A stretch of DNA of 64,000 nucleotides, taken from positions 1 to 64,000 of the forward strand of contig CAIMWE010000253.1 of assembly GCA_903845115.1 (NCBI GenBank). Direction: 5' to 3'. This DNA comes from an uncultured Acidobacteriota bacterium. Lineage in GTDB: Bacteria > Acidobacteriota > Thermoanaerobaculia > UBA5066. A program made the position numbers and the translations under genes. The notes under the pieces were generated by a model, which saw only the letters and a list, made by a program, of their open reading frames with translations, searched no databases and was not told the DNA's origin. This document shows, in pieces, positions 38,976 through 55,444 of the stretch. The first letter of the stretch is position 1, and every line of letters begins with the position of its first letter.

Positions 38976-40163
38976 CTATTTCTTCTGCGTCATCCGGTAG
39001 ACGAGGCCGACGCCCGGCGTCCCCTTCTCGAGGAGCTGCGTGCGGTACGCGAGGGCCTCCTCCGCCGTGGCGAACTCGCCCACGACGGCCCGGTACCAGA
39101 GTCCCTTTTCCCCCAGGTCGACCTGGACCGCCCGCGCGGGGAGCCCCAGCTGCTTCGCGAGGAGGGCGGCGTGCTTCTCGGAGCGCGCCTTTTCCGTGAA
39201 GCTGGAGAAGTGGATCACGTGGATCGGCGCCCCCGTCCAGTCGGGCGTGACGAGCGGCCCGGCGCGAAGCTGCACCTGCGCCGCGGCGGGCTCCCGCTTC
39301 TCCCCTTGCTTCGGGGAAGCCGGCACGGCCTTTTCGACCGGCACGGCCGTCGGCTGCGGAGGCGGGGGGATCGGAGCCACGGCGGTCGTCACCGGGACGA
39401 CGGTGGCCGGAGCGGCGGCGGCCGCCTCGCGCTTCTCAGCGAGCGGAGGAGGAGGTCCGGCCGGCTTCGAGGGCCCCGAGATGAGGTACCAGGCACCGCC
39501 TCCGGCCACGAGCACGAGGAGGGCGGCCGCCAGAAGGAGCGGAAGCGGCGAGGTCCGGGCCGGGGGCGGCTGGAGAGGAGGAAGCGGCGCTTCCGCCCTC
39601 GCCGGCACGATCGGCTCGTCGAGAACGACGGCGAAGGGCGGCGGCGGGGCCGCCGGACCGGGCTCCGCGGCCGGCTCGCCTCCGGGCGGGGCGTCCGGGA
39701 GCGGGGAGGACACCTCGAAGGGGGCCGTCTCCGGCGGAGGGATCTCCCCGCCCTGGTCCTCCGTGGGCGCCAGCGCGTCGGCTTCCCATCGAAGGTCGAG
39801 CCTCCCGGACGTCTCGCCGAACGGGTCGGCCCCTTCCGGGAGCGGTCCCGCGGGCGGGGCGGGCAAGACCGGGGCGGGGGGAGGAGGCGGCTCGAACGGG
39901 AAGATCTCGAGCGGCGGCCGGGCTTCCTGCTCCAGCAGGAGCCACGCCCGCTCCACCAGGACCTCCACCGCGGCCGATTCCTCTCCTTCCTTGACCCGGA
40001 CCAGCTCCGCGGCGCAGACCTTCCGCGAGACCGTCTGAATGCTCGCCGCATCGGCGGCGGTCCTCCGCGACAGCTCCTGGGCGACCTCCGCCACCGACGG
40101 GAGCATCCTCTTGCGTGTACGCGACGACGTCGAATCGAAGCCGTTCTCGTGATCGCCGCTCAT
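38976..40163 (-). CDS. Membrane-anchored SPOR-domain protein
   Basis: A 395-residue protein. Residues 20-85 are helical and cytoplasmic (LPSVAEVAQELSRRTAADA), 88-205 are Pro-rich and acidic, a single membrane helix is at 206-228 (LLLAAALLVLVAGGGAW), then a Pro/Ala linker and a C-terminal SPOR domain at about 315-395 (PIHVIHFSSFTEKARSEKHA, LWYRAVVGEFATAEEALAYR). SPOR domains bind glycan strands stripped of stem peptides at the division septum, exactly the product of amidases such as the one two genes upstream. The long cytoplasmic part is unusual and could contact the actin-like protein encoded just upstream. Confidence 0.85.
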   Translation of the reverse strand: MSGDHENGFDSTSSRTRKRMLPSVAEVAQELSRRTAADAASIQTVSRKVCAAELVRVKEGEESAAVEVLVERAWLLLEQEARPPLEIFPFEPPPPPAPVLPAPPAGPLPEGADPFGETSGRLDLRWEADALAPTEDQGGEIPPPETAPFEVSSPLPDAPPGGEPAAEPGPAAPPPPFAVVLDEPIVPARAEAPLPPLQPPPARTSPLPLLLAAALLVLVAGGGAWYLISGPSKPAGPPPPLAEKREAAAAAPATVVPVTTAVAPIPPPPQPTAVPVEKAVPASPKQGEKREPAAAQVQLRAGPLVTPDWTGAPIHVIHFSSFTEKARSEKHAALLAKQLGLPARAVQVDLGEKGLWYRAVVGEFATAEEALAYRTQLLEKGTPGVGLVYRMTQKK

Positions 40164-40167
40164 CTGC

Positions 40168-41187
40168 TCATCCGGCCAGCTGCTCCCAGTCCTCTCCGGG
40201 CGCGTCGAGGGCGATGGACAGGCCGCCGATGGCCCCGGCGAAGACCGGGTCCTCGATCGGACGGACCGACCCGCCCCCCACGTCGGCGAGGGTCTTCTCC
40301 AGGACGCCCGCGAGGCCTCGGATCTGCGACCCGCCCCCCGCCAGGAGGACGTTCCGGCGGACCTTCTCCTGGAACTCGGGCTCGACCCGCGAGAGGAGGT
40401 CGAGCATCGTCTCGGAGAGCGGGGCGACGAGGCTCTCGCACGCTTTCCGCATCTCGCTCGTGATGTCGAGGAGCGTCGGCTTGCCTCCGACCGGGGCCGT
40501 CACCTGGACCGGGCCGGGCGACTCGCCCACGTAAGCGTGGGCTTCCTTCCACTCCCGGATCATGTGGATCGAGAAGCGGGCCTCGGGGTGGCGCGCCTTC
40601 ACCAGCATCATCAGCTGGTCGTCCACCGAGTCGCCCGCGTTCGTGAGCGTCCGCTGGTCGTCCTCGGTCGGGTAGCGGCCGTTCATGACGCAAAAGTCGG
40701 TCGTCCCCGCGCCGATGTCGATGATCATCGTGTGGAGCAGCGCGTCCATCCCGTACGCCACCGCGAACGGCTCCGAAACGATCATCAGCGCGTCGGCCAC
40801 GCCCTTCACCGCCGTCCGGAGGTTCTGGCGCGAGACCCGGAGCGCCTCGGCCGGCACCCCGACCACCGCGTTCACCTTCTGTCCGTCGGCCGGAGCGGCG
40901 AGCGAGATCAGGTGCTTGATCAGCTCGCGCACCGCGGCTTCGTCCTTCTCGGAGCCCTCCTTGATGAGCCCGCGCTCCAGCGGGCGGTGGAGGTCGAGCA
41001 TCGGGCGGCTGTCGAGCGCCTCGCGGCCGAAGAGGATCGATTTCTTGACCACCTTGCGCGCCACCATGTCGACGGGCCACCCGACGTAGCTCTCGACGAC
41101 GTGGCGGGAGCCGTTCGACGCGGCGATGGCGCTCCGCGAGGTGCCCAGGTCGATTCCGACGTGGAGGAGGTCTTTCTTCCCGGCCAT
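40168..41187 (-). CDS. MamK/MreB-like bacterial actin
   Basis: A 339-residue actin-fold ATPase. Phosphate-1 motif GIDLGTSRSAIAASNG (11-26), phosphate-2 IIDIGAGTTDF (155-165), SEPFAVAYGMD and the adenosine motif LLAGGGSQIRGL (about 298) are intact. VVESYVGWPVDMVARK and MLDLHRPLERGLIKEG resemble MamK, the magnetosome filament protein, more than MreB or ParM; this is recognition by memory, not alignment. No other magnetosome gene is in the window. ATG 41187 has GGGAG eight bases upstream and begins four bases after the amidase stop; the SPOR gene starts four bases after its end. The operon suggests a filament acting in wall remodelling. Confidence 0.85.
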   Translation of the reverse strand: MAGKKDLLHVGIDLGTSRSAIAASNGSRHVVESYVGWPVDMVARKVVKKSILFGREALDSRPMLDLHRPLERGLIKEGSEKDEAAVRELIKHLISLAAPADGQKVNAVVGVPAEALRVSRQNLRTAVKGVADALMIVSEPFAVAYGMDALLHTMIIDIGAGTTDFCVMNGRYPTEDDQRTLTNAGDSVDDQLMMLVKARHPEARFSIHMIREWKEAHAYVGESPGPVQVTAPVGGKPTLLDITSEMRKACESLVAPLSETMLDLLSRVEPEFQEKVRRNVLLAGGGSQIRGLAGVLEKTLADVGGGSVRPIEDPVFAGAIGGLSIALDAPGEDWEQLAG

Positions 41188-41191
41188 TCCG

Positions 41192-42211
41192 TCAGCTCCC
41201 TTTCTCCTTCTTCCGGCCCGCCGTCCGCGGCGCCGGCTCCCGCGAGTCCATGTAGCTCCTGAGACCCTGAAAGATCGAGGCGGCGATCCGCTGCCGGTAG
41301 TCGGCCCGAGCGAGGAGCCGCGCTTCCTCCTCGTTCGAGACACACGAGACCTCGACAAGGATACCCGGCATCTCGGTCCCGATCAGCACCGCGAGCGGCG
41401 CGCTCTTCACGCCGCGGTCGAGAAGCTCCCGGTTCGCCTCGTGAAGGCCCGCGAAGAGGCTCGTCTGGACCTCGCCGGCCAGGCGGCGGGACTCCTCCTG
41501 CCTCACGCCGGCGTAGACGCCCTCGAGCAGCCGCCGGAAGTCGGAGAGCGCGTAGCCGGACTCCCGGTTCTCGAGGCTGGCCACCTCCTCGATCTGCGGG
41601 CCGTCGGCGGCGCCGAGAAAATAGGTCTCCACCGCGCGAGCGTCCTTCCGGGGGATCGAGTTGACGTGGATCGAGACGAACAGGTCGCCGCGCTCGGCGT
41701 TCGCGAAGGTCGCCCGGTCGCGGAGCACGAGCCCCCGGTCGCCTTCGCGGGTCATCGCCACCTTGTAGCGTGCGTCCTCCAGGAGCGCCCGGAGCCTGCG
41801 GGCCACGTCGAGCGTGACCTCCTTCTCCGCGAGCCCCGAGGCGGCCGAGGCCCCCGGGTCGGCCCCGCCGTGCCCCGGGTCCAGGACCACCTTCCCCACC
41901 TCGAGGCTGAAGAGCGCCGGGGCGATCGCCCGCGGCGCCTGGTGAGGCCCGGAGAGAGGAGCCTGGAACGCCGTCCTCGGCGTGACCACCAGCACCTCGG
42001 GCTTCTCTCCGCCTCCGGTCGAGACCGCGTTCACGGAGAGGAAGATCACCACGGCCGCCGCCGCCGCGCTCAGCACCCGGACCGGCCAGCGCCACCGCTT
42101 CTCCGCGCGCCGGAAGCGGCGCTCCAGGTAGACGCGGTCGTCCAGCAGCTCCACGTTCTCGCGGACCGCGCCCCTCAGCATCTCCTTCTTCAGCCTTTGC
42201 ATTTCCGTCAT
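41192..42211 (-). CDS. N-acetylmuramoyl-L-alanine amidase (Amidase_3), membrane anchored
   Basis: A 339-residue protein. A basic cytoplasmic N-terminus (1-42) precedes one membrane helix (43-62), then the zinc amidase domain: VVLDPGHGGADPGAS (zinc His), EKEVTLDVARRL (zinc Glu), FVSIHVNS (zinc His) and ILVEVSCVSNEEEARLL (catalytic Glu). It cuts the bond between MurNAc and the stem peptide in the periplasm. Unlike AmiC it has no AMIN domain or cleavable Tat signal; it is tethered. First gene of the amidase-actin-SPOR operon. Confidence 0.92.
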   Translation of the reverse strand: MTEMQRLKKEMLRGAVRENVELLDDRVYLERRFRRAEKRWRWPVRVLSAAAAAVVIFLSVNAVSTGGGEKPEVLVVTPRTAFQAPLSGPHQAPRAIAPALFSLEVGKVVLDPGHGGADPGASAASGLAEKEVTLDVARRLRALLEDARYKVAMTREGDRGLVLRDRATFANAERGDLFVSIHVNSIPRKDARAVETYFLGAADGPQIEEVASLENRESGYALSDFRRLLEGVYAGVRQEESRRLAGEVQTSLFAGLHEANRELLDRGVKSAPLAVLIGTEMPGILVEVSCVSNEEEARLLARADYRQRIAASIFQGLRSYMDSREPAPRTAGRKKEKGS

Positions 42212-42232
42212 GCCAAACGATTCCGGGGCTAG

Positions 42233-42595
42233 TCAGTTCCGGATCATCGTCAGCAGCATCTTGAACGGCTTCAGGGCGTTGACCGCGTGAGGGATCCCGG
42301 CCGGCAGCAGGATCGACCGCCCGGCCACCACGCGGTGCGGCGTTCCCCCGATCACCACCTGCGCCTCCCCTGCCAGCACCTGCGCCAGTGCGTCGAACGG
42401 AGCCGTGTGCTCGCTCAACGCCTGCCCCCCGTCGAAGGCGAAGAGCGTGATCGTCCCCGTCGGCTTCTTCAGCAGCGTCCGGCTCACGACCGCCGCCGGC
42501 TGCGTCTCCACGAGGTCCGCCAGCACCACCGGTCCCCCGGCGAGGGGGTCCGGCGCCGCCGGCAACGTCCCCGCCTTCTCGTTCGCCTTTTCCAT
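42233..42595 (-). CDS. Cupin-domain protein
   Basis: A 120-residue protein made of one cupin barrel: motif 1 includes SEHTAPFDALAQVLAGEAQV and motif 2 VAGRSILLPAGIPHAVNAL, with His residues for a metal. Small cupins of this kind (YlbA- or RmlC-unlike) have no predictable substrate. ATG 42595 is preceded by GGGAGGAATCG. It ends 21 bases before the amidase start region and may be transcribed with it. Confidence 0.85.
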   Translation of the reverse strand: MEKANEKAGTLPAAPDPLAGGPVVLADLVETQPAAVVSRTLLKKPTGTITLFAFDGGQALSEHTAPFDALAQVLAGEAQVVIGGTPHRVVAGRSILLPAGIPHAVNALKPFKMLLTMIRN

Positions 42596-45556: not shown

Positions 45557-46030
45557 CTACTTGTCGTTCCGCTCCAGCTTGATCTGGAGCGTGCCGTGCT
45601 CGTTCTCGATCTCCACCTTGCCCGTGCTGGTCCCCTTCGCGAGGTACCACTTCACCTCCCCCGGCTTCTCCGAGGTGCTGGTGACCTGCCAGCCGTTCGA
45701 GGCGATCGCGGCGAGGTAGAACTTCTTGACGTTGTCGAAGGTGTCCCCGGAGTTGAACTTCGCTTCCACGCTGCTGGAGAACCCGGCGTGAGGCTCCGCC
45801 CTGAGCGCGACCTTCGTCGCCCCGGGATAGTCGGGGAGGTCGGCGACGGAGGGCGCAGCCGCCGGCGCGGCCGGGGCGGGCGCCGCGCTGGCCGGCGCGG
45901 CCGGGGCCTGGGCCGGAGCCGCTGCCGCCGGAGGAGCCGCAGCCGGGGGAGCCGCCGGCTGCTCGTTCCCCTTGCAGGCGACGAGGCTCATCGAGACCGC
46001 AACGAGAGCAGGGACCAGCAATTTTTTCAT
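45557..46030 (-). CDS. Small lipoprotein with Ala/Pro linker
   Basis: A 157-residue lipoprotein: MKKLLVPALVAVSMSLVAC gives a clear lipobox with Cys19. Residues 25-62 are an Ala/Pro linker. The C-terminal 95 residues are a small mixed fold (YPGATKVALRAEPHAGFSSS, FYLAAIASNGWQVTSTSE, LQIKLERN) as seen in many hypothetical periplasmic lipoproteins. Function unknown. AAAGGAA precedes the ATG. Confidence 0.8.
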   Translation of the reverse strand: MKKLLVPALVAVSMSLVACKGNEQPAAPPAAAPPAAAAPAQAPAAPASAAPAPAAPAAAPSVADLPDYPGATKVALRAEPHAGFSSSVEAKFNSGDTFDNVKKFYLAAIASNGWQVTSTSEKPGEVKWYLAKGTSTGKVEIENEHGTLQIKLERNDK

Positions 46031-46167: not shown

Positions 46168-47145
46168 TCAAGCGTCGCGCGGGACGGAGGCCGGGACCTC
46201 CGAGGCAGGGACCGCCTTCTCGAGCAGTGCGACGAGTTGCGGGTCCCAGGCTCCCTCCCGAGCCTCCTCGGCGATGATCCTCGTCGCGTCGGCGTGCTGG
46301 CGCGACGGGCGGTGAGGACGTGACGAGACGAGAGCGTCGTAGGCGTCGGAGATCGCCAGGACCTGGACGGAGAGAGGGATGTCGAGCCCGCTGACGCCGT
46401 ACGGGTATCCCGACCCGTCGATCCGCTCGTGGTGGCGAAGGACGAACGGCCCCAACGGCTCCAGCGATCGGATTCCCCGGATCATCTCGAATCCCACGAC
46501 CGGGTGGGAGCGGACGAGGGCGAGCTCCTCCCTCGAGAACTCCGTCTCCTTGAGGAGGATCCGGTCGGGGATGGACACGGTCCCGATGTCGTAGAGGGTC
46601 GCCGCCTGCCGGAGCCTCTCCATCTCGCCGGGGGGAAGGCCCACGAGCCGGCCCATCTCGATGGCCAGGCCCGCGACGCGGAGGGAGTGGTCCACCCGGT
46701 AGATCTCCCGGGACTCCACTCCACGCAGAATCCCCCCGAGGACGCGGACGAAGTCGTTCGTCTCGCGCTTGAGAAGGGTCCGCCCCGCCAGGGCGCGGAG
46801 CCGGGCCGCGAGGCGCGGGATGCCCGTGGGCCACTCCAGGATGTCGTCGGCCCCCTCGGAGAGAGCCGCGTCCGCGAGGCCGTCCGCCCCCGCGGGGACG
46901 ATGGCGAGGAGCGGAAGCGCCGCCCGCCCGGCCTCGTTCCGCCAGCTCCGGAGGAGCTCCCTCGGCGCCGGGGCCCCGCCGAGGAGCGAGACCGCCACGA
47001 CCTGCGGACTGACGAGGGCGGCGGCGGCGGCGGCGGCCGGATCGCCGACCGGAAGGCAGCTGAAGCGCGCGGCCTCGATCTGAGCGGCGATGGCTGAGCG
47101 CCGACTCTCGGACTCTTCCACCAGCAGGACGAGCGGGAAGCTCAC
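46168..47145 (-). CDS. Degenerate HD-GYP regulator with pseudo-receiver
   Basis: A 325-residue protein. Residues 3-115 have the receiver fold (LVLLVEESESRRSAI), but the phospho-Asp position is Ser (VVAVSLLGG, Ser53). Residues 128-320 are an HD-GYP domain with VDHSLRVAGL, SHPVVGFEMI and HHERIDGSGYP all kept, yet the central HD is changed to YD (LYDIGTVSIPD, Tyr185) and the following GK to GT. So c-di-GMP hydrolysis is doubtful; it may be a sensor. The start is GTG; rc TATCGT (47153-47158) ends seven bases before it. Divergent from the NtrC-like gene. Confidence 0.85.
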   Translation of the reverse strand: MSFPLVLLVEESESRRSAIAAQIEAARFSCLPVGDPAAAAAAALVSPQVVAVSLLGGAPAPRELLRSWRNEAGRAALPLLAIVPAGADGLADAALSEGADDILEWPTGIPRLAARLRALAGRTLLKRETNDFVRVLGGILRGVESREIYRVDHSLRVAGLAIEMGRLVGLPPGEMERLRQAATLYDIGTVSIPDRILLKETEFSREELALVRSHPVVGFEMIRGIRSLEPLGPFVLRHHERIDGSGYPYGVSGLDIPLSVQVLAISDAYDALVSSRPHRPSRQHADATRIIAEEAREGAWDPQLVALLEKAVPASEVPASVPRDA

Positions 47146-47202: not shown

Positions 47203-48591
47203 GTGGGTTCCCCTGAGTCGTCGTTCGCTCGCGTGGCGGTCGTGGCTTCCGACGCCGCCGTGCGCGAGCTGATCCGGTCGGCCTTGCGGACGGAGCCGGT
47301 CACCGTCGACCTGATCCAGAGCGCACGGGAGTTCTACGCCGGGTGCGGCCTTTCGCGCTACGCGCTGGTCCTCGCCGACTGGGCCCTCTCCGACAGCTCC
47401 GCCCTCGACTTCCTGCGCGAGGGCCGCCGCCTGGCGCCAGGGGCGCGTTTCGTCCTGATGGCCTCCGACGTGCCGCTCTCGGCGATCGTCGAGGCGGTCA
47501 AGGACGGGGCCGACGACGTCCTGCAGAAGCCGTTCCGGCTCGAGCAGCTGACGTCCATCGTCCGGCGCTCCCTTCCCTCCGCGGGCGAGCCCGAATCCGC
47601 GCCGAGCAGCGCCCCGCCGGGAGCGGCCGCCGCCGTGGGGAGCTCTCCGGCCTGGCGGGACCTTCTCGACCGCGCCCGGCGGGTGGCGGAGCTCTCCTCC
47701 ACGGTCTTGATCCGGGGGGAGACCGGGTCCGGGAAAGAGGTCCTCGCCCGGTACATCGCCTCGTGCAGCCGGCGGGCCGGAAAGACCTTCCTCGCGGTGA
47801 ACTGCTCGGCCATGCCCGAGACGCTCGTCGAGAGCGAGCTGTTCGGACACGAGAAGGGCGCGTTCAGCGGCGCCGACACCGCCCACGCGGGCCTCTTCGA
47901 GGAGGCGGACGGCGGGACGATCTTCCTCGACGAGATCGGGACGATGCCGATCCAGGCCCAGGCGAAGATCCTCCGGGTACTCGAGGAACGCCAGGTGCGG
48001 CGGGTCGGCGGCAGCCGCAACACCCCCGTCGACATCCGCGTCCTCGCCGCCACGAACCTCGACATCGAGGCGGCCATCGCCCGGAGGGAGTTCCGCGAGG
48101 ACCTCTACTACCGGCTCGCGGTGGTCACGCTCTGGATTCCCCCCCTCCGGAAGCGCGTCTCCGACATCGAGGTGCTGGCGGACTACTTCCTCGGGCAGCT
48201 CACGCCGCCCGGAGAGGCGCCGCGCAGCCTCTCCCCCGCCGCGCTCGCCTTCCTCCAGAGCTACCCGTTCCCCGGCAACGCCCGGGAGCTCCGCCACGCC
48301 CTGGAGCAGGCCGTGATCTTCTCGAGCGGCGTCGAGCTCCGCCCCGAGGACTTCTCGTCGCTGGCCGCACGCCTCGAGATGCTTCCGGGTCGCCGGGACC
48401 CCTCGGAATCGCCAGCCGATGAGCAGGTCACCCCCGAGCGCCTCCTCGCCGCCCTCCGGTCGTGCGGGGGAAATCGAGTCGAAGCCGCCCGGTCGCTGAG
48501 GATCAGCCGCTCCACGCTCTACCGGCTCCTGAAGCGGATCAGCAACGGCGAAGAGGACGACCAGGAGACGACGCTCACATCGACGCCCTGA
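47203..48591 (+). CDS. NtrC-family sigma-54 activator
   Basis: A 462-residue regulator. A receiver (8-125) has Asp59 (YALVLADWALSDSS), then a linker, AAA+ domain with Walker A RGETGSGKE, sigma-54 loop GAFSGA (Ser in place of the usual Thr), Walker B FLDEIGTM and FPGNARELRH, and a Fis-type HTH (RVEAARSLRISRSTLYRLL). The phosphoacceptor is present, unlike in the neighbouring HD-GYP protein. A partner kinase is not adjacent. The start is GTG 47203. The target may be the operon that begins 100 bases downstream, but no -24/-12 GG/GC element was found with confidence there. Confidence 0.92.
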   Translation: MGSPESSFARVAVVASDAAVRELIRSALRTEPVTVDLIQSAREFYAGCGLSRYALVLADWALSDSSALDFLREGRRLAPGARFVLMASDVPLSAIVEAVKDGADDVLQKPFRLEQLTSIVRRSLPSAGEPESAPSSAPPGAAAAVGSSPAWRDLLDRARRVAELSSTVLIRGETGSGKEVLARYIASCSRRAGKTFLAVNCSAMPETLVESELFGHEKGAFSGADTAHAGLFEEADGGTIFLDEIGTMPIQAQAKILRVLEERQVRRVGGSRNTPVDIRVLAATNLDIEAAIARREFREDLYYRLAVVTLWIPPLRKRVSDIEVLADYFLGQLTPPGEAPRSLSPAALAFLQSYPFPGNARELRHALEQAVIFSSGVELRPEDFSSLAARLEMLPGRRDPSESPADEQVTPERLLAALRSCGGNRVEAARSLRISRSTLYRLLKRISNGEEDDQETTLTSTP

Positions 48592-48691
48592 AGCGCCGGG
48601 GCGAGGTTCGACGGACCAGCCAGCCGGACGGCGCCCCTGGCCTCTATCGCGCGAGGCCGCCGAATTGCTACGATCCAGGCAGGCACAAACA

Positions 48692-50008
48692 ATGAAGAAT
48701 CCCGGCGGCACCGTTCCGCGGGAGAGTTCTGCTGAGGGATCGTCCTCCCCCGGCGCGGCGGATCCGGAGCCCGGCGCGGTGAAGCGGGATTTTCTCCTCC
48801 TGGTCGCCAGCCGGGTCTTCTCCCGCCTGGGAGACGGCTTCCTCCGGATCCTCGCCGTCCTCCTCGTGGCCGCCAGGAGCAAGGACCCGATGGTCGCGGG
48901 CCTCGTCCTCGTCTTCCGGTACGTCTCCGAGATCCTGATCAACGCCGTCTCGGGGCCGTTCATCGACCGGTTCCGGATCCGGACCTCGCTCATGGCCTCG
49001 GACCTCCTCCGGACGGCCCTCTCGCTCCTCCTCGTCGCGGCGGTCCTCTCGGGCCAGCCGTACTGGCTCTTCCTCGTCCTCTCGTTCCTGGGCGACTTCG
49101 TCTTCATCTTCTTCAAGCCGGCGGCCGACAAGGTGGTCAAGGTCGATTTTCCGGTCTCGGAGGGGACGAGGATCCTCTCGCTGGTGGACGCCGCGAACCA
49201 CGTGAGCAACATCGGCGGGTACGCCCTCGCGAGCCTGGTCGCCGCCACCCTGGGACTGGAGGTCGCGGTCCTTTTCGGGCCGGTCTTCTTCTTCTCGTCG
49301 TTCCTGCTGGTCGCCCGCCTCCGGTTGCCGGGCGAGAAGGCGATCGACTACCGGAAGGTCCGGAGCCAGTCGTGGTGGGAGAGCCAGCGCGAGGGTCTCC
49401 TCTACACCTGGAGGAGCCGTCCCCTGCGCTTCCTGCTGATCGGCCGCTCGCTCGTCGCCGTCGGGCAGGGGTCCTTCTCCGTCCTCTCGGTCGCCTACCT
49501 CGCGAGCCTGGCGAAGGGGATCTCGTCGTACGGGTACTTCGAGTCGGCCCAGTCCGCCGGGAAGGTCGTGGTCACGCTCCTGGTGATCCCGTTTTTCTTC
49601 GCGCGGCGCTCGACCTTCCTCCTGACGGCCGTCTCGCTCCTCCTCGTCGGGTTCTCCTTCTTCGGCTTCCGCCTCGCGCACGACGTCGTCCTCGCCTGTC
49701 TGGTCGGCGCGATGGTCGGGGCGGGGCAGGCGAGCCAGGCCGTCGGCGTCGACGCGATCCTGAACCGCTACTCCGAGGCCTCTATCCAGGGGCGCGCGAA
49801 GTCGACGACCAGCTTCGGGAGCCGCCTCTCGGGCCTCGCCGCCATCGGGCTCGTCTATTTCCTGGTGTCGGCCGCCAGGGTGGAGCCGAGGGTCATCTTC
49901 GGGTGGCTCGGCATCTTCCCCATAATAGGGGCGCTCGTCTTCTTCCTGGGGTGGATGGCCGAGCGGTCTGGAAAGGTCGGGGTGAGTGAGGTGACCGATG
50001 GAACCTGA
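48692..50008 (+). CDS. MFS transporter heading the kinase-like/FHA operon
   Basis: A 438-residue protein with a Ser/Pro-rich cytoplasmic start and about 11-12 membrane helices. SGPFIDRFRIRTSLMASDLLR is the loop 2-3 motif of the MFS_3/EntS-like family; quoted residues lie near 80-100. TACGAT at 48669-48674 is a possible -10 with a start about 9-10 bases before ATG. It is followed by three genes with unusual signalling domains, and its stop region overlaps the next ATG by 11 bases. The substrate is unknown. Confidence 0.82.
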   Translation: MKNPGGTVPRESSAEGSSSPGAADPEPGAVKRDFLLLVASRVFSRLGDGFLRILAVLLVAARSKDPMVAGLVLVFRYVSEILINAVSGPFIDRFRIRTSLMASDLLRTALSLLLVAAVLSGQPYWLFLVLSFLGDFVFIFFKPAADKVVKVDFPVSEGTRILSLVDAANHVSNIGGYALASLVAATLGLEVAVLFGPVFFFSSFLLVARLRLPGEKAIDYRKVRSQSWWESQREGLLYTWRSRPLRFLLIGRSLVAVGQGSFSVLSVAYLASLAKGISSYGYFESAQSAGKVVVTLLVIPFFFARRSTFLLTAVSLLLVGFSFFGFRLAHDVVLACLVGAMVGAGQASQAVGVDAILNRYSEASIQGRAKSTTSFGSRLSGLAAIGLVYFLVSAARVEPRVIFGWLGIFPIIGALVFFLGWMAERSGKVGVSEVTDGT

Positions 50009-52234: not shown

Positions 52235-55200
52235 ATGAAAGAGCTCACCCCGTTCCCGATGAAGAGCGCCCCCGGTCCCGGCGACCCGGCGGAAGGCCTG
52301 GACGCGACCAGGCTCGACGAGGGCGCTGCGAAGCCCGGGGAGGACTCCGTCTGGAGGTCTACCCTGGAGGTCGTGCAGGGGGAGTCCAGCCGGCGCCTCG
52401 TGCACCTCGGAAGCGCCCCCGTCCGCCTGGGCCGGGCGGCCACGAACGACGTCGTGCTCTTGGACGACGGCGTCTCTCGCGCGCACGCCGAGATCCGTTT
52501 CGAGGGCGGCGGCTACGTCCTCCACGACCTCGACTCGTCCAACGGGACGCGGGTCGACGAGGTTCGCGTCAAGAGCCTGCCCCTGAAGGGAGGGGCGCGG
52601 ATCGGTCTCGGAGGGGCGGTCCTCCTCTTCTCCCAGCCGAACCCCGAAGTGGCCGAGGGGGACCGCCTCGCCCTCATGGCGAGGAGCGACCTCCTCTCCA
52701 CGCTGGCGCCTCCCACGCGGGCGGCGGCGGCGAAGCTGATGACCGTCCGGTTCGTCCCCCGCGGCGCCCAGCTCCTCAGGCAGTCCGCCCCGATGGAGGG
52801 GATCCTGTTCCTCCACAGGGGCCGCCTGCGGGTCGTCGAGGTGAACGACGAGGGAGGAGAGCGGGTGGTGGCCCGCATCGAGGCCGGAGACCACTTCGGC
52901 GAGCGCGCGCTCGTGGCCGCCGTCTCGGCGCCACAGACGCTCGTCGCGGACGCAGACTCGTGCGTCCTCGAGCTGACGAAATCGGCGCTGGACGGGCTCC
53001 TCCAGAAGGACCCGCACCAGAGCCAGGCGATGGCCGGGACGGTCCGGCTCAAGCTCCAGACGGCGCAGCGGAAGGCCGCGAAGCCGCCGGCGCTCCCGAC
53101 GGCCAAGGCCGCCCCGGCCGCCGCCGCCACGGCCCTTCCTGTCCTCCCGGCCGCCCGGGCCGTCCGGACCGACGACCTCGACGACGTCGTCACCTCCACC
53201 GACGTCGTCATCGTGGGCGAGGACAAGAAGATCCTCCAGGCCAAGGAGCGTCTCGAGACCTTCGCGAAGGACGAGCTCCCGGTCCTGATCGTCGGGCCGC
53301 AGGGATCGGGCAAGAGGACCTTCGCCCGCCATGCCCACCACGCCGGCTCGCACAAGGGACAGCCGTACATCGAGATGTCCACCGCCGATCCCGGCCCCGG
53401 GGGCCCTGGCGCGGCGATCTTCGGAGTCGAGCCGCAGACGGGGAGCGCCGCGAAGGGCCAGGTCGGCTTCCTCGAGATGGTCGGGGAGGGGACGCTGGCC
53501 GTCGTCCACGCCGAGCTGCTCGACGCCCACCTCCAGGCTCTCCTCGCGAGCTACCTCAAGCTCGGCTGGTTCCACCGGCTGCAGGGCCAGGGAGTGGTGA
53601 AGTGCAGGACCCGCGTCGTCCTCCTCGCCACCGGAGACCAGGCCTCGGTCCTCGAGAAGCTGATCCCGGAGCTGCGCGAGATGCTCGCCAAGCGCGTCGT
53701 CGCGATCCCGCCGCTCGCCTCACGCCTGAAGGACATCCCGCTCCTGGCCGAGCACTACGTGAGGGTCTACGCCGCCTCGGCCGGCCGCAAGCCGGTCTCT
53801 CTCTCGCGCGAGGCCACCGACAAGCTGGTGTCGTACGGGTGGCCGGGGAACGTCCGCGAGCTCGAGAACGTGATGCAGCGGGCGGCGATCGTGACGGCCG
53901 AGGACTCGATCATCCCGGGCGACCTGATCTTCGTCTCCGCTCCCGAGAAGGAGATCCACAAGCTCAACCTCCTCCGGAACGACCGCGTCCGCAACTTCCT
54001 GCGCCACCCGAAGCTGATGGCGACGCTCCTCTGGATCGACCTGATCTTCGTCCTGGGCGTCCTCGCCGTCACGCTGTACGGGGGGACGCGCCCCGCCGGC
54101 CACCCCCTGGCCGAGTTCGCGACGAACCCCGGGATGCTGGTCACCTGGATCATCTGGTTCCCGGCGCTCCCCATCACCGCCTTCCTCGTCGGCCGGATCT
54201 GGTGCGGGGTCTGCCCGATCGCCTTCGCGGGCGACCTCGTCGGCAAGGTGAAACGCTACAACCTGCCGGTCCCGAAGATCTTCAAGCGCCTCGATTTCTG
54301 GCTCGTGGCCGCCTCCTTCATCCTGATCGACTACGTGGAGGAGCTCTTCGGCGTGGCGGACAGGCCGATCGCCACCGCGGTCCTCCTCATCGTCCTGATC
54401 TACCTCGCGATCGCCATGACGGTCTTCTGGGAGCGCAAGACGTTCTGCCGCCACATCTGTCCTCTCGCGGGGGTCCTCGGCGCCTACTCGTCCATGAGCA
54501 TGTTCGAGGTCCGGGGCAACAAGAAAGTCTGCCAGACGCAGTGCGGGGAGCACACCTGCTACAAGGGGACCGCCACGGTCGACGGGTGTCCCCTCTTCTC
54601 CTACCCGGCGTCGATGAACATGAACGCCGAGTGCATGATGTGCCTCAACTGCCTCAAGAGCTGCGACAACCGCGGCGTCCAGCTCAACGTCCGGCCCCCC
54701 TTGCAGGAGATCTGGCGCAACGGCCAGACGAGCCTCGCCCTCTCGGTCTTCGGCGTCATCCTCGTCGGCATGATGGCCAAGCACCAGTTCCCGAAGCTGG
54801 CCGTCTGGGCCCCCGTCCAGCAGCGGCTCGGCTGGTCCGACCAGTGGGCCCACACGATCCTCTACTTCGGCTCCATCCTGATCGCCGTCACGGCCTTCTG
54901 GCTCGCGTCGATCCTCTCCGCGGCGGCGTCCCGGGAGGGGATCACGAAGAACATGGCCACCTACGGGGTCGCCTTCATCCCGCTCGCCCTCTCGGGGCAC
55001 GTCGCGCACCTGGCGCACGAGATCCTGGGCGAGAAGCTCTACCTCCTGCTCGCCTACCCCGTGAAGCTCTTCCAGTCTCTCTTTGGCGGGGTCCCGATCG
55101 CCGCGTCCACCTTCCAGATCGCGCCGTTCGTCCCGGACCCGGTCATCACCTTCCTGAAGTTCCTGCTGGTGGCGGGAGGGGTCGTCGGCTCCGTCGTGGC

Positions 55201-55444
55201 GCTGGTCATGGTCTCCAGGCGCATCTCGACCGAGAACGTCTTCGCGCGGGCGATGCCGCACCTCCTCCTCGTCGGGGTCTTCTCCGTCGCCTACCTGATG
55301 ATCTTCACCGGGGCGAAGGCGGGGGAAGCGGCGCCGCCCCCGGCGGCGTCGCCCGTGGCGGCGGCCCCGGCGCCCCAGCCTGCCCCGGCCAACCGGCCCG
55401 CGCCGGCTCAGCCGGGAAGGAGGCCCGGGCCCGCCGTTCCCTGA
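52235..55444 (+). CDS. FHA + cNMP-binding + sigma-54-like AAA + [4Fe-4S] membrane fusion protein
   Basis: A 1069-residue protein with an unusual layout. FHA at 42-130 (RLGRAATNDVVL, VSRAHAEIRF, DSSNGTRVDEV). CNB-like domain at 147-262 (GDHFGERALV), but the phosphate-binding Arg is Gln (SAPQTLV). AAA at 322-565 with Walker A GPQGSGK (354-360) and YGWPGNVRELENVMQRA (534-550), yet the sigma-54 loop is lost and Walker B reads LAVVHAELLD with no acidic pair; there is no HTH. From 590 on lies a NapH/NosR/CcoG-like membrane iron-sulfur module: WCGVCP (656-661), FCRHICP (737-743), ferredoxin CMMCLNCLKSC (800-810) and further Cys at 766, 770, 775 and 785, then four or five more helices and a Pro/Ala tail. 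It may link redox state to FHA-phosphothreonine signals. It follows the zinc-ribbon gene by 15 bases. Confidence 0.82.
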   Translation: MKELTPFPMKSAPGPGDPAEGLDATRLDEGAAKPGEDSVWRSTLEVVQGESSRRLVHLGSAPVRLGRAATNDVVLLDDGVSRAHAEIRFEGGGYVLHDLDSSNGTRVDEVRVKSLPLKGGARIGLGGAVLLFSQPNPEVAEGDRLALMARSDLLSTLAPPTRAAAAKLMTVRFVPRGAQLLRQSAPMEGILFLHRGRLRVVEVNDEGGERVVARIEAGDHFGERALVAAVSAPQTLVADADSCVLELTKSALDGLLQKDPHQSQAMAGTVRLKLQTAQRKAAKPPALPTAKAAPAAAATALPVLPAARAVRTDDLDDVVTSTDVVIVGEDKKILQAKERLETFAKDELPVLIVGPQGSGKRTFARHAHHAGSHKGQPYIEMSTADPGPGGPGAAIFGVEPQTGSAAKGQVGFLEMVGEGTLAVVHAELLDAHLQALLASYLKLGWFHRLQGQGVVKCRTRVVLLATGDQASVLEKLIPELREMLAKRVVAIPPLASRLKDIPLLAEHYVRVYAASAGRKPVSLSREATDKLVSYGWPGNVRELENVMQRAAIVTAEDSIIPGDLIFVSAPEKEIHKLNLLRNDRVRNFLRHPKLMATLLWIDLIFVLGVLAVTLYGGTRPAGHPLAEFATNPGMLVTWIIWFPALPITAFLVGRIWCGVCPIAFAGDLVGKVKRYNLPVPKIFKRLDFWLVAASFILIDYVEELFGVADRPIATAVLLIVLIYLAIAMTVFWERKTFCRHICPLAGVLGAYSSMSMFEVRGNKKVCQTQCGEHTCYKGTATVDGCPLFSYPASMNMNAECMMCLNCLKSCDNRGVQLNVRPPLQEIWRNGQTSLALSVFGVILVGMMAKHQFPKLAVWAPVQQRLGWSDQWAHTILYFGSILIAVTAFWLASILSAAASREGITKNMATYGVAFIPLALSGHVAHLAHEILGEKLYLLLAYPVKLFQSLFGGVPIAASTFQIAPFVPDPVITFLKFLLVAGGVVGSVVALVMVSRRISTENVFARAMPHLLLVGVFSVAYLMIFTGAKAGEAAPPPAASPVAAAPAPQPAPANRPAPAQPGRRPGPAVP

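Follow-up and report, generated by a model that had tools for sequence, protein, structure and literature searches.

NtrC-type AAA modules are transcription machines, and NapH/NosR-like modules are respiratory parts. The stretch of 64,000 nucleotides analysed here (the window), from an uncultured Acidobacteriota bacterium, contains a gene for a protein, P0001, that carries both kinds of module behind an FHA domain and a cyclic-nucleotide-binding (CNB) domain. The locus raises the question of whether such a chain is a genuine fusion and what an AAA domain of this type would do in front of a membrane redox module. The joining of the two modules, with the motor always inactivated, suggests a way in which signalling could control membrane redox chemistry directly rather than via gene expression.

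Domain layout and integrity of P0001

The gene and its domains are arranged as follows:

52235-55444, plus strand: P0001, an FHA-CNB-pseudoAAA-membrane polyferredoxin protein of 1069 aa (ORF, Pfam, homologues, AlphaFold)
52421-52612, plus strand: FHA domain, residues 63-126, with the phosphothreonine-contact residues GR, SRxH and N intact (Pfam, 3.7e-16)
52748-53011, plus strand: CNB fold, residues 172-259, with the phosphate-cassette Arg replaced by Gln234 (Pfam cNMP_binding, 4.1e-15)
53210-53926, plus strand: degenerate sigma-54-type AAA and lid, residues 326-564 (Pfam, motif reading, NtrC1 fold match)
53972-55312, plus strand: membrane iron-sulfur module, about residues 580-1026, with helices around a cytoplasmic loop region and 12 invariant Cys

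The reading frame begins with ATG and is open throughout. Pfam models were matched, all above their gathering scores, in the order FHA, cNMP_binding, Sigma54_activat (PF00158, residues 326-475, 5.5e-15), AAA_lid_14 (PF25601, residues 496-564, 1.6e-19) and Fer4_5 (PF12801, matched twice, 1.6e-11). The initial annotation had placed an FHA domain, a CNB fold, a sigma-54-type AAA and a NapH/NosR/CcoG-like polyferredoxin in one chain, with which Pfam and the intact ORF agree. A helix-turn-helix (HTH) domain had no Pfam match in P0001, the C-terminal place being taken by the membrane Fer4_5 module. The model predicted by AlphaFold on a 62-row family alignment had a mean pLDDT of 88.4. The scan of the operon for promoters and terminators returned nothing above chance.

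The further claim that no standard family has this domain order is borne out by the curated libraries, since no NCBIfam model spans the whole chain and the scores for the AAA, NapH and CcoG models stay well short of their cut-offs. The FHA-CNB-AAA-polyferredoxin architecture was likewise found in no paper of the open-access literature searched. Each domain is known; it is the combination, the family-wide dead motor and the modular inputs that are absent from the curated family libraries and open-access literature searched.

The unusual domain mix alone could point to an assembly artefact or to two wrongly joined ORFs, an outcome named beforehand as one that would overturn the architecture. The same domain order is, however, found in separately assembled genomes at 63%, 49–54% and about 25% identity to P0001. 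Full-length homologues are present in G006 (63%) and G045 (49%), a partial one with about 62% identity is located at a contig end in G030, and the order recurs in G139, G140 and, from other assemblies, in L015, L016, L017, L019 and L023. As the full architecture is kept across independent genomes, the fusion is due neither to chance nor to an assembly error, and the artefact is vanishingly improbable.

Recognition domains, pseudo-AAA and membrane module

P0001 and eight close-clade rows of the alignment have the FHA core residues GR, SRxH and N. A second FHA-CNB-AAA-Fd group (L013, L061 and L102) is more distant, is separated from the P0001 clade in the tree and has lost the phosphate-contact Arg; parsimony requires two changes of FHA state on the family tree. 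In the genomes of this second group (G048, G135 and G131) a conserved gene for a large secreted protein lies directly downstream, at position +1.

The CNB part of the model matches the CNB domains of PKG and M. loti. In P0001 it keeps Glu223 and has Gln234 at the position of the phosphate Arg, in line with the initial reading of this fold, and the Arg is absent in all close-clade rows. The neighbouring kinase-like protein with a CNB domain has a canonical PR, as do several Desulfobulbales members. Because the CNB of the P0001 clade is devoid of the Arg that contacts the cyclic-nucleotide phosphate, binding of cyclic nucleotides is more plausible for that neighbour. The arrangement of a CNB fold ahead of a regulatory output resembles one-component regulators of the CRP/FNR type, from which P0001 differs in having no HTH and, with its clade, no phosphate-cassette Arg. 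Class III nucleotide cyclases of the same genome, at G000:C196 and G000:C304, are accompanied by FHA matches a short distance away on their contigs; the class III cyclases are a possible source of cyclic nucleotides for CNB proteins.

The AAA domain retains a Walker A motif (GPQGSGKR), while the Walker B position reads EGTLAVVHA, with the acids missing, and neither GAFTGA nor the REDLYYRL arginine-finger motif is present. Two true sigma-54 activators from the window served as controls for the motif reading, and both have a Walker B DE and GAFSGA or GAFTGA. The loss of GAFTGA and of the Walker B acids beside a preserved Walker A, as first noticed, is thus supported. The Walker B acid pair, GAFTGA and REDLYYRL occur in no family member read; the loss is therefore either older than the radiation of the family or was fixed repeatedly. 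The Walker A Lys is kept in the P0001 clade except in L017 and is replaced by Arg in several distant members. The activity of a sigma-54 activator is ruled out by the missing Walker B acids, GAFTGA and arginine-finger motif, and a defence system was also rejected, the PADLOC matches reflecting only the shared AAA (RtcR-like) and CNB folds.

In structural comparisons the AAA model matched NtrC1 (Z 27.6, rmsd 2.2 over 242 residues), FleQ (Z 26.0) and VpsR (Z 23.6). Solved structures of VpsR and FleQ with bound c-di-GMP exist, which offers a lead, by analogy, that the pseudo-AAA domain may still bind a nucleotide. P0001 shares the sensor-AAA-output layout, the AAA and lid fold and Walker A with sigma-54 activators of the NtrC family (bEBP), including the degenerate FleQ and VpsR; unlike bEBP, the family has no Walker B acids, GAFTGA, arginine-finger motif or HTH, and its output is a membrane iron-sulfur module. 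The chain is laid out like a sigma-54 activator with a membrane redox module in place of the DNA-binding domain.

Twelve Cys are invariant in all 62 fused members and their spacing is fixed throughout the family alignment. They form the groups C657/C660 (CX2CP, 657-661), C738/C742 (CX3CP, 738-743), C766/C770/C775/C785 (CX3CX4CX9CP, the first cluster motif of the module) and C800/C803/C806/C810. Distant unfused cousins keep 11 of the 12 (27/27). Among the eight Cys listed initially, 742, 800, 803, 806 and 810 were correct and three were off by one (the true positions being 657, 660 and 738); the conservation that was to be checked holds in 62/62 members, and the four invariant Cys 766, 770, 775 and 785 had been missed. 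The charge bias of the loops predicts a cytoplasmic location for all 12, next to the FHA, CNB and AAA domains.

Homology links the module with CcoG and the NapH-like proteins encoded by its own genome (hhalign 98%, E 3.1e-13). NapH has been proposed to take electrons from quinol, and NosR and RdhC share its membrane module (PMC5928378, PMC8238504). The similarity to these Fer4_5 proteins lies in paired Cys-P motifs between membrane helices, a ferredoxin region on the cytoplasmic side and profile homology. The differences are the N-terminal FHA-CNB-AAA part, the first motif, which is CX2CP instead of CX3CP, the absence of an FMN_bind match in P0001 (Pfam; the FMN-binding domain of NosR/RdhC type), and scores below the curated cut-offs, 32.8 against 213.05 bits for NapH (TIGR02163) and 15.1 against 316.7 bits for CcoG (TIGR02745). 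The NapH-like proteins and CcoG of the same genome have CX3CP twice, which makes CX2CP a signature of the family. A separate model of the module was predicted with pLDDT 92.3 and pTM 0.88. No solved structure in the PDB resembled the whole module above background (best Foldseek E 0.1, best VIA Z 6.9), which does not make the fold new; the ferredoxin part of 1hfe_L aligned with it at Z 4.1 and 2.5 A over 62 residues.

An alternative is a CcoG-like role in maturation or metal handling, in which the Fd module would reduce copper or another metal or aid the assembly of respiratory enzymes, and the signalling domains would control only its location or abundance. Distant stand-alone cousins in Chloroflexi and Bacillota do adjoin genes for cupredoxin, COX2-like, PCYCGC and HMA proteins and copper-type P-ATPases, but none of these genes was found beside the fused members inspected, fused members reach only 15 bits against the CcoG cut-off of 317, and the genome already encodes a true CcoG above the cut-off (L158), so that we regard this role as improbable. 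A Nos/copper link for the fused protein was rejected, being seen only for distant stand-alone cousins. The unfused cousins L057, L058, L060 and L065 are located beside cupredoxin, PCYCGC, YtkA, HMA and copper-type P-ATPase genes.

Family spread and gene neighbourhood

The family comprises more than 60 fused members from Acidobacteriota, Desulfobulbales, Planctomycetota (including Scalindua), Armatimonadota and others, the organism names being taken from MAG titles. Its constant core is the degenerate AAA with the membrane iron-sulfur module (AAA-Fd), to which FHA-CNB, CNB, CNB-GAF, GAF or HisKA-REC inputs are attached at the N-terminus. Most members have CNB only (Desulfobulbales, Armatimonadota, Acidobacteriota and others), as does a paralogue of P0001 in its own genome (G000:C197). 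CNB-GAF occurs in Nitrospirota, Scalindua and Brocadiaceae, GAF in Desantisbacteria, and HisKA-REC in one Planctomycetota and one Acidobacteria MAG. At E < 1e-60 members were found in 16 of 149 genomes of the class of the window, and at the stricter 1e-100 in 6 of 396 genomes evenly sampled from the phylum. Members occur in Desulfosediminicola flagellatus IMCC35005 and Desulfobulbus sp. Tol-SR; these named and presumably cultured strains make the family testable.

The HisKA-REC-AAA-Fd variants (L054, 8987-12061, and L088, 9002-11974) have no ATPase domain of a kinase, and are encoded next to a histidine kinase (hybrid or FHA-GAF-PAS) and a solitary receiver protein. One family of small membrane proteins with no Pfam match adjoins the family gene in eight loci (at +1 in L034, L044, L054, L055, L081, L088 and L103, and at -1 in L027) and is a possible conserved partner.

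The loss of many catalytic motifs, and of the CNB Arg in the P0001 clade, could also mean that the N-terminal and AAA domains are functionless, decaying remnants of a fusion that has left an ordinary polyferredoxin. All domain folds are nevertheless conserved at 49–63% identity over the full length, the FHA recognition residues are intact in the P0001 clade, and the predicted fold is confident. Moreover, the sigma-54 AAA and lid models still recognise all 46 members that were scanned singly, in which CNB was matched in 43, Fer4_5 in 43, FHA in 11, GAF in four, and HisKA and REC in two. Decay is accordingly very unlikely.

P0001 is the last gene of a cassette, the other genes and flanks of which are:

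45557-46030, minus strand: putative lipoprotein with a Cys-containing leader, with homologues next to the cassette in G006, G139, G075 and G138
48665-50008, plus strand: MFS transporter, overlapping the next gene (the gene caller prefers a start at 48779); conserved three genes upstream of P0001
49998-51218, plus strand: kinase-like protein with CNB, the phosphate cassette of which has the canonical PR; conserved as the second gene upstream of P0001
51227-52219, plus strand: protein with a YgiT-like zinc ribbon and a kinase-like domain, HRD Asp replaced by Ser; conserved directly upstream of P0001
55446-56354, minus strand: convergent zinc-ribbon protein, the G006 homologue of which matches PEGA; this flank is conserved in G006 and G139

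The order of the four plus-strand genes is the same in the window, G006, G030 and G140, and the last three are kept in G045 and G139; the cassette with two kinase-like genes was found in six genomes. The flanking lipoprotein and zinc-ribbon/PEGA protein are possibly part of the same system. Both kinase-like genes are present in 7/7 genomes of the class that have a P0001-clade protein (hypergeometric 2.9e-11, with shared ancestry ignored). Strict pairing was rejected as not universal, since the kinase-like genes occur without an adjacent Fd gene in G075, G039 and G138 (on another contig in G138), and the close-clade members L017/L128 and L019 have no kinase gene nearby.

Both kinase-like families retain the glycine loop, Lys, Glu, Asn and the DFG-type Asp, and the HRD Asp is replaced by Ser in all 14 sequences, which makes these neighbours nominal pseudokinases; judged from this residue, they may be pseudokinases in fact. 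Elsewhere in the family, genes for PknB-type kinases immediately follow the family gene in L015 and L020, immediately precede it in L054 and are two genes off in G131. A kinase or kinase-like gene is located within six genes in 8 of 12 FHA-containing members and in 3 of 43 without FHA (Fisher p 5e-5, a value that overstates independence because most FHA cases belong to one clade and the rows lack phylogenetic independence). Intact FHA recognition residues are found in the clade that has kinases nearby, the second FHA clade having no Arg. P0001 resembles bacterial FHA proteins paired with Ser/Thr kinases in its intact motif and kinase or kinase-like neighbours, but here the FHA domain is part of a membrane redox protein and the neighbours in the window have no HRD Asp. 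The genome contains 40 Pkinase matches above cut-off and three class III cyclases. No conserved redox partner gene (reductase or cytochrome) was found in the cassette; cytochrome-like genes are nearby in the Holophagae genome G045, and the others are without them.

Possible role of the fused protein

At about even confidence, we favour the explanation that P0001 is a membrane-anchored, signal-gated electron-transfer protein, responding to a ligand or to phosphorylation, with the build of a sigma-54 activator and a NapH-like iron-sulfur output, for which we infer the redox partners, the gating and the direction in which it works. The FHA domain would dock a phosphothreonine partner, either another protein of the cassette or a substrate of one of the about 40 Hanks-type kinases of the genome. 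The pseudo-AAA, perhaps nucleotide-bound and oligomeric, would relay the FHA state to the membrane module, which would accept electrons (from quinol, as proposed for NapH) and hand them on to an acceptor only in one signalling state. Since interchangeable inputs are attached to a constant AAA-Fd core, the Fd module is taken as the output, i.e. as gated membrane electron transfer. Counting against this reading are the cassette without a conserved redox partner gene, the HRD Asp missing from the kinase-like neighbours, the incomplete pairing of kinase-like and Fd genes, and the loss of the FHA Arg in the second clade.

The main rival runs in the opposite direction. As a redox sensor, the module would read the quinone pool or the cytoplasmic redox state, and, via the pseudo-AAA, the FHA and CNB domains would recruit or release the kinase-like partners, thereby regulating the MFS exporter or another target. 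NosR and NirI were originally described as regulators (PMC8139620, PMC5928378), the cassette consists of signalling proteins and an MFS transporter with no redox enzyme, and FHA, mostly a docking domain, suits an output role. However, the N-terminal domains vary and include receiver and GAF domains, which are normally inputs, and the Fd module is constant; Fd as the output fits this better, and we consider sensing rather unlikely.

The initial annotation had hypothesised a hub for redox sensing or electron transfer under the control of phosphorylation and nucleotide binding. It is still a hypothesis, which is favoured by the kinase-like operon, the Hanks-type kinases beside other members and the interchangeable N-terminal signalling domains, and is weakened by the CNB without the cyclic-nucleotide phosphate Arg in every clade member and by the kinase-like neighbours with Ser for the HRD Asp. 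With relatives from some ten bacterial phyla, P0001 belongs to a genuine and apparently undescribed family, by which cells may be able to turn membrane electron flow on or off, and there is a fair chance that these proteins form a new class of redox proteins gated by signalling. In its widest form the proposal is somewhat more tentative: a catalytically dead NtrC-type AAA would relay phosphothreonine, ligand or phosphorelay signals to a membrane iron-sulfur module, as direct post-translational control of electron transfer by a widespread undescribed class in about ten bacterial phyla, a count made approximate by the use of MAG titles. The family also offers a setting for chains that are probably labelled as sigma-54 regulators or 4Fe-4S proteins in automatic annotation.

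In the interval from the lipoprotein gene to the cassette, the window encodes an HD-domain protein (46168-47145, minus strand) and an intact sigma-54 response regulator (47203-48591, plus strand), a pair that is not found at the G006 cassette. At 38976-42595 (minus strand), a MreB/MamK-like actin gene is clustered with genes for Amidase_3, a SPOR-domain protein and a cupin.
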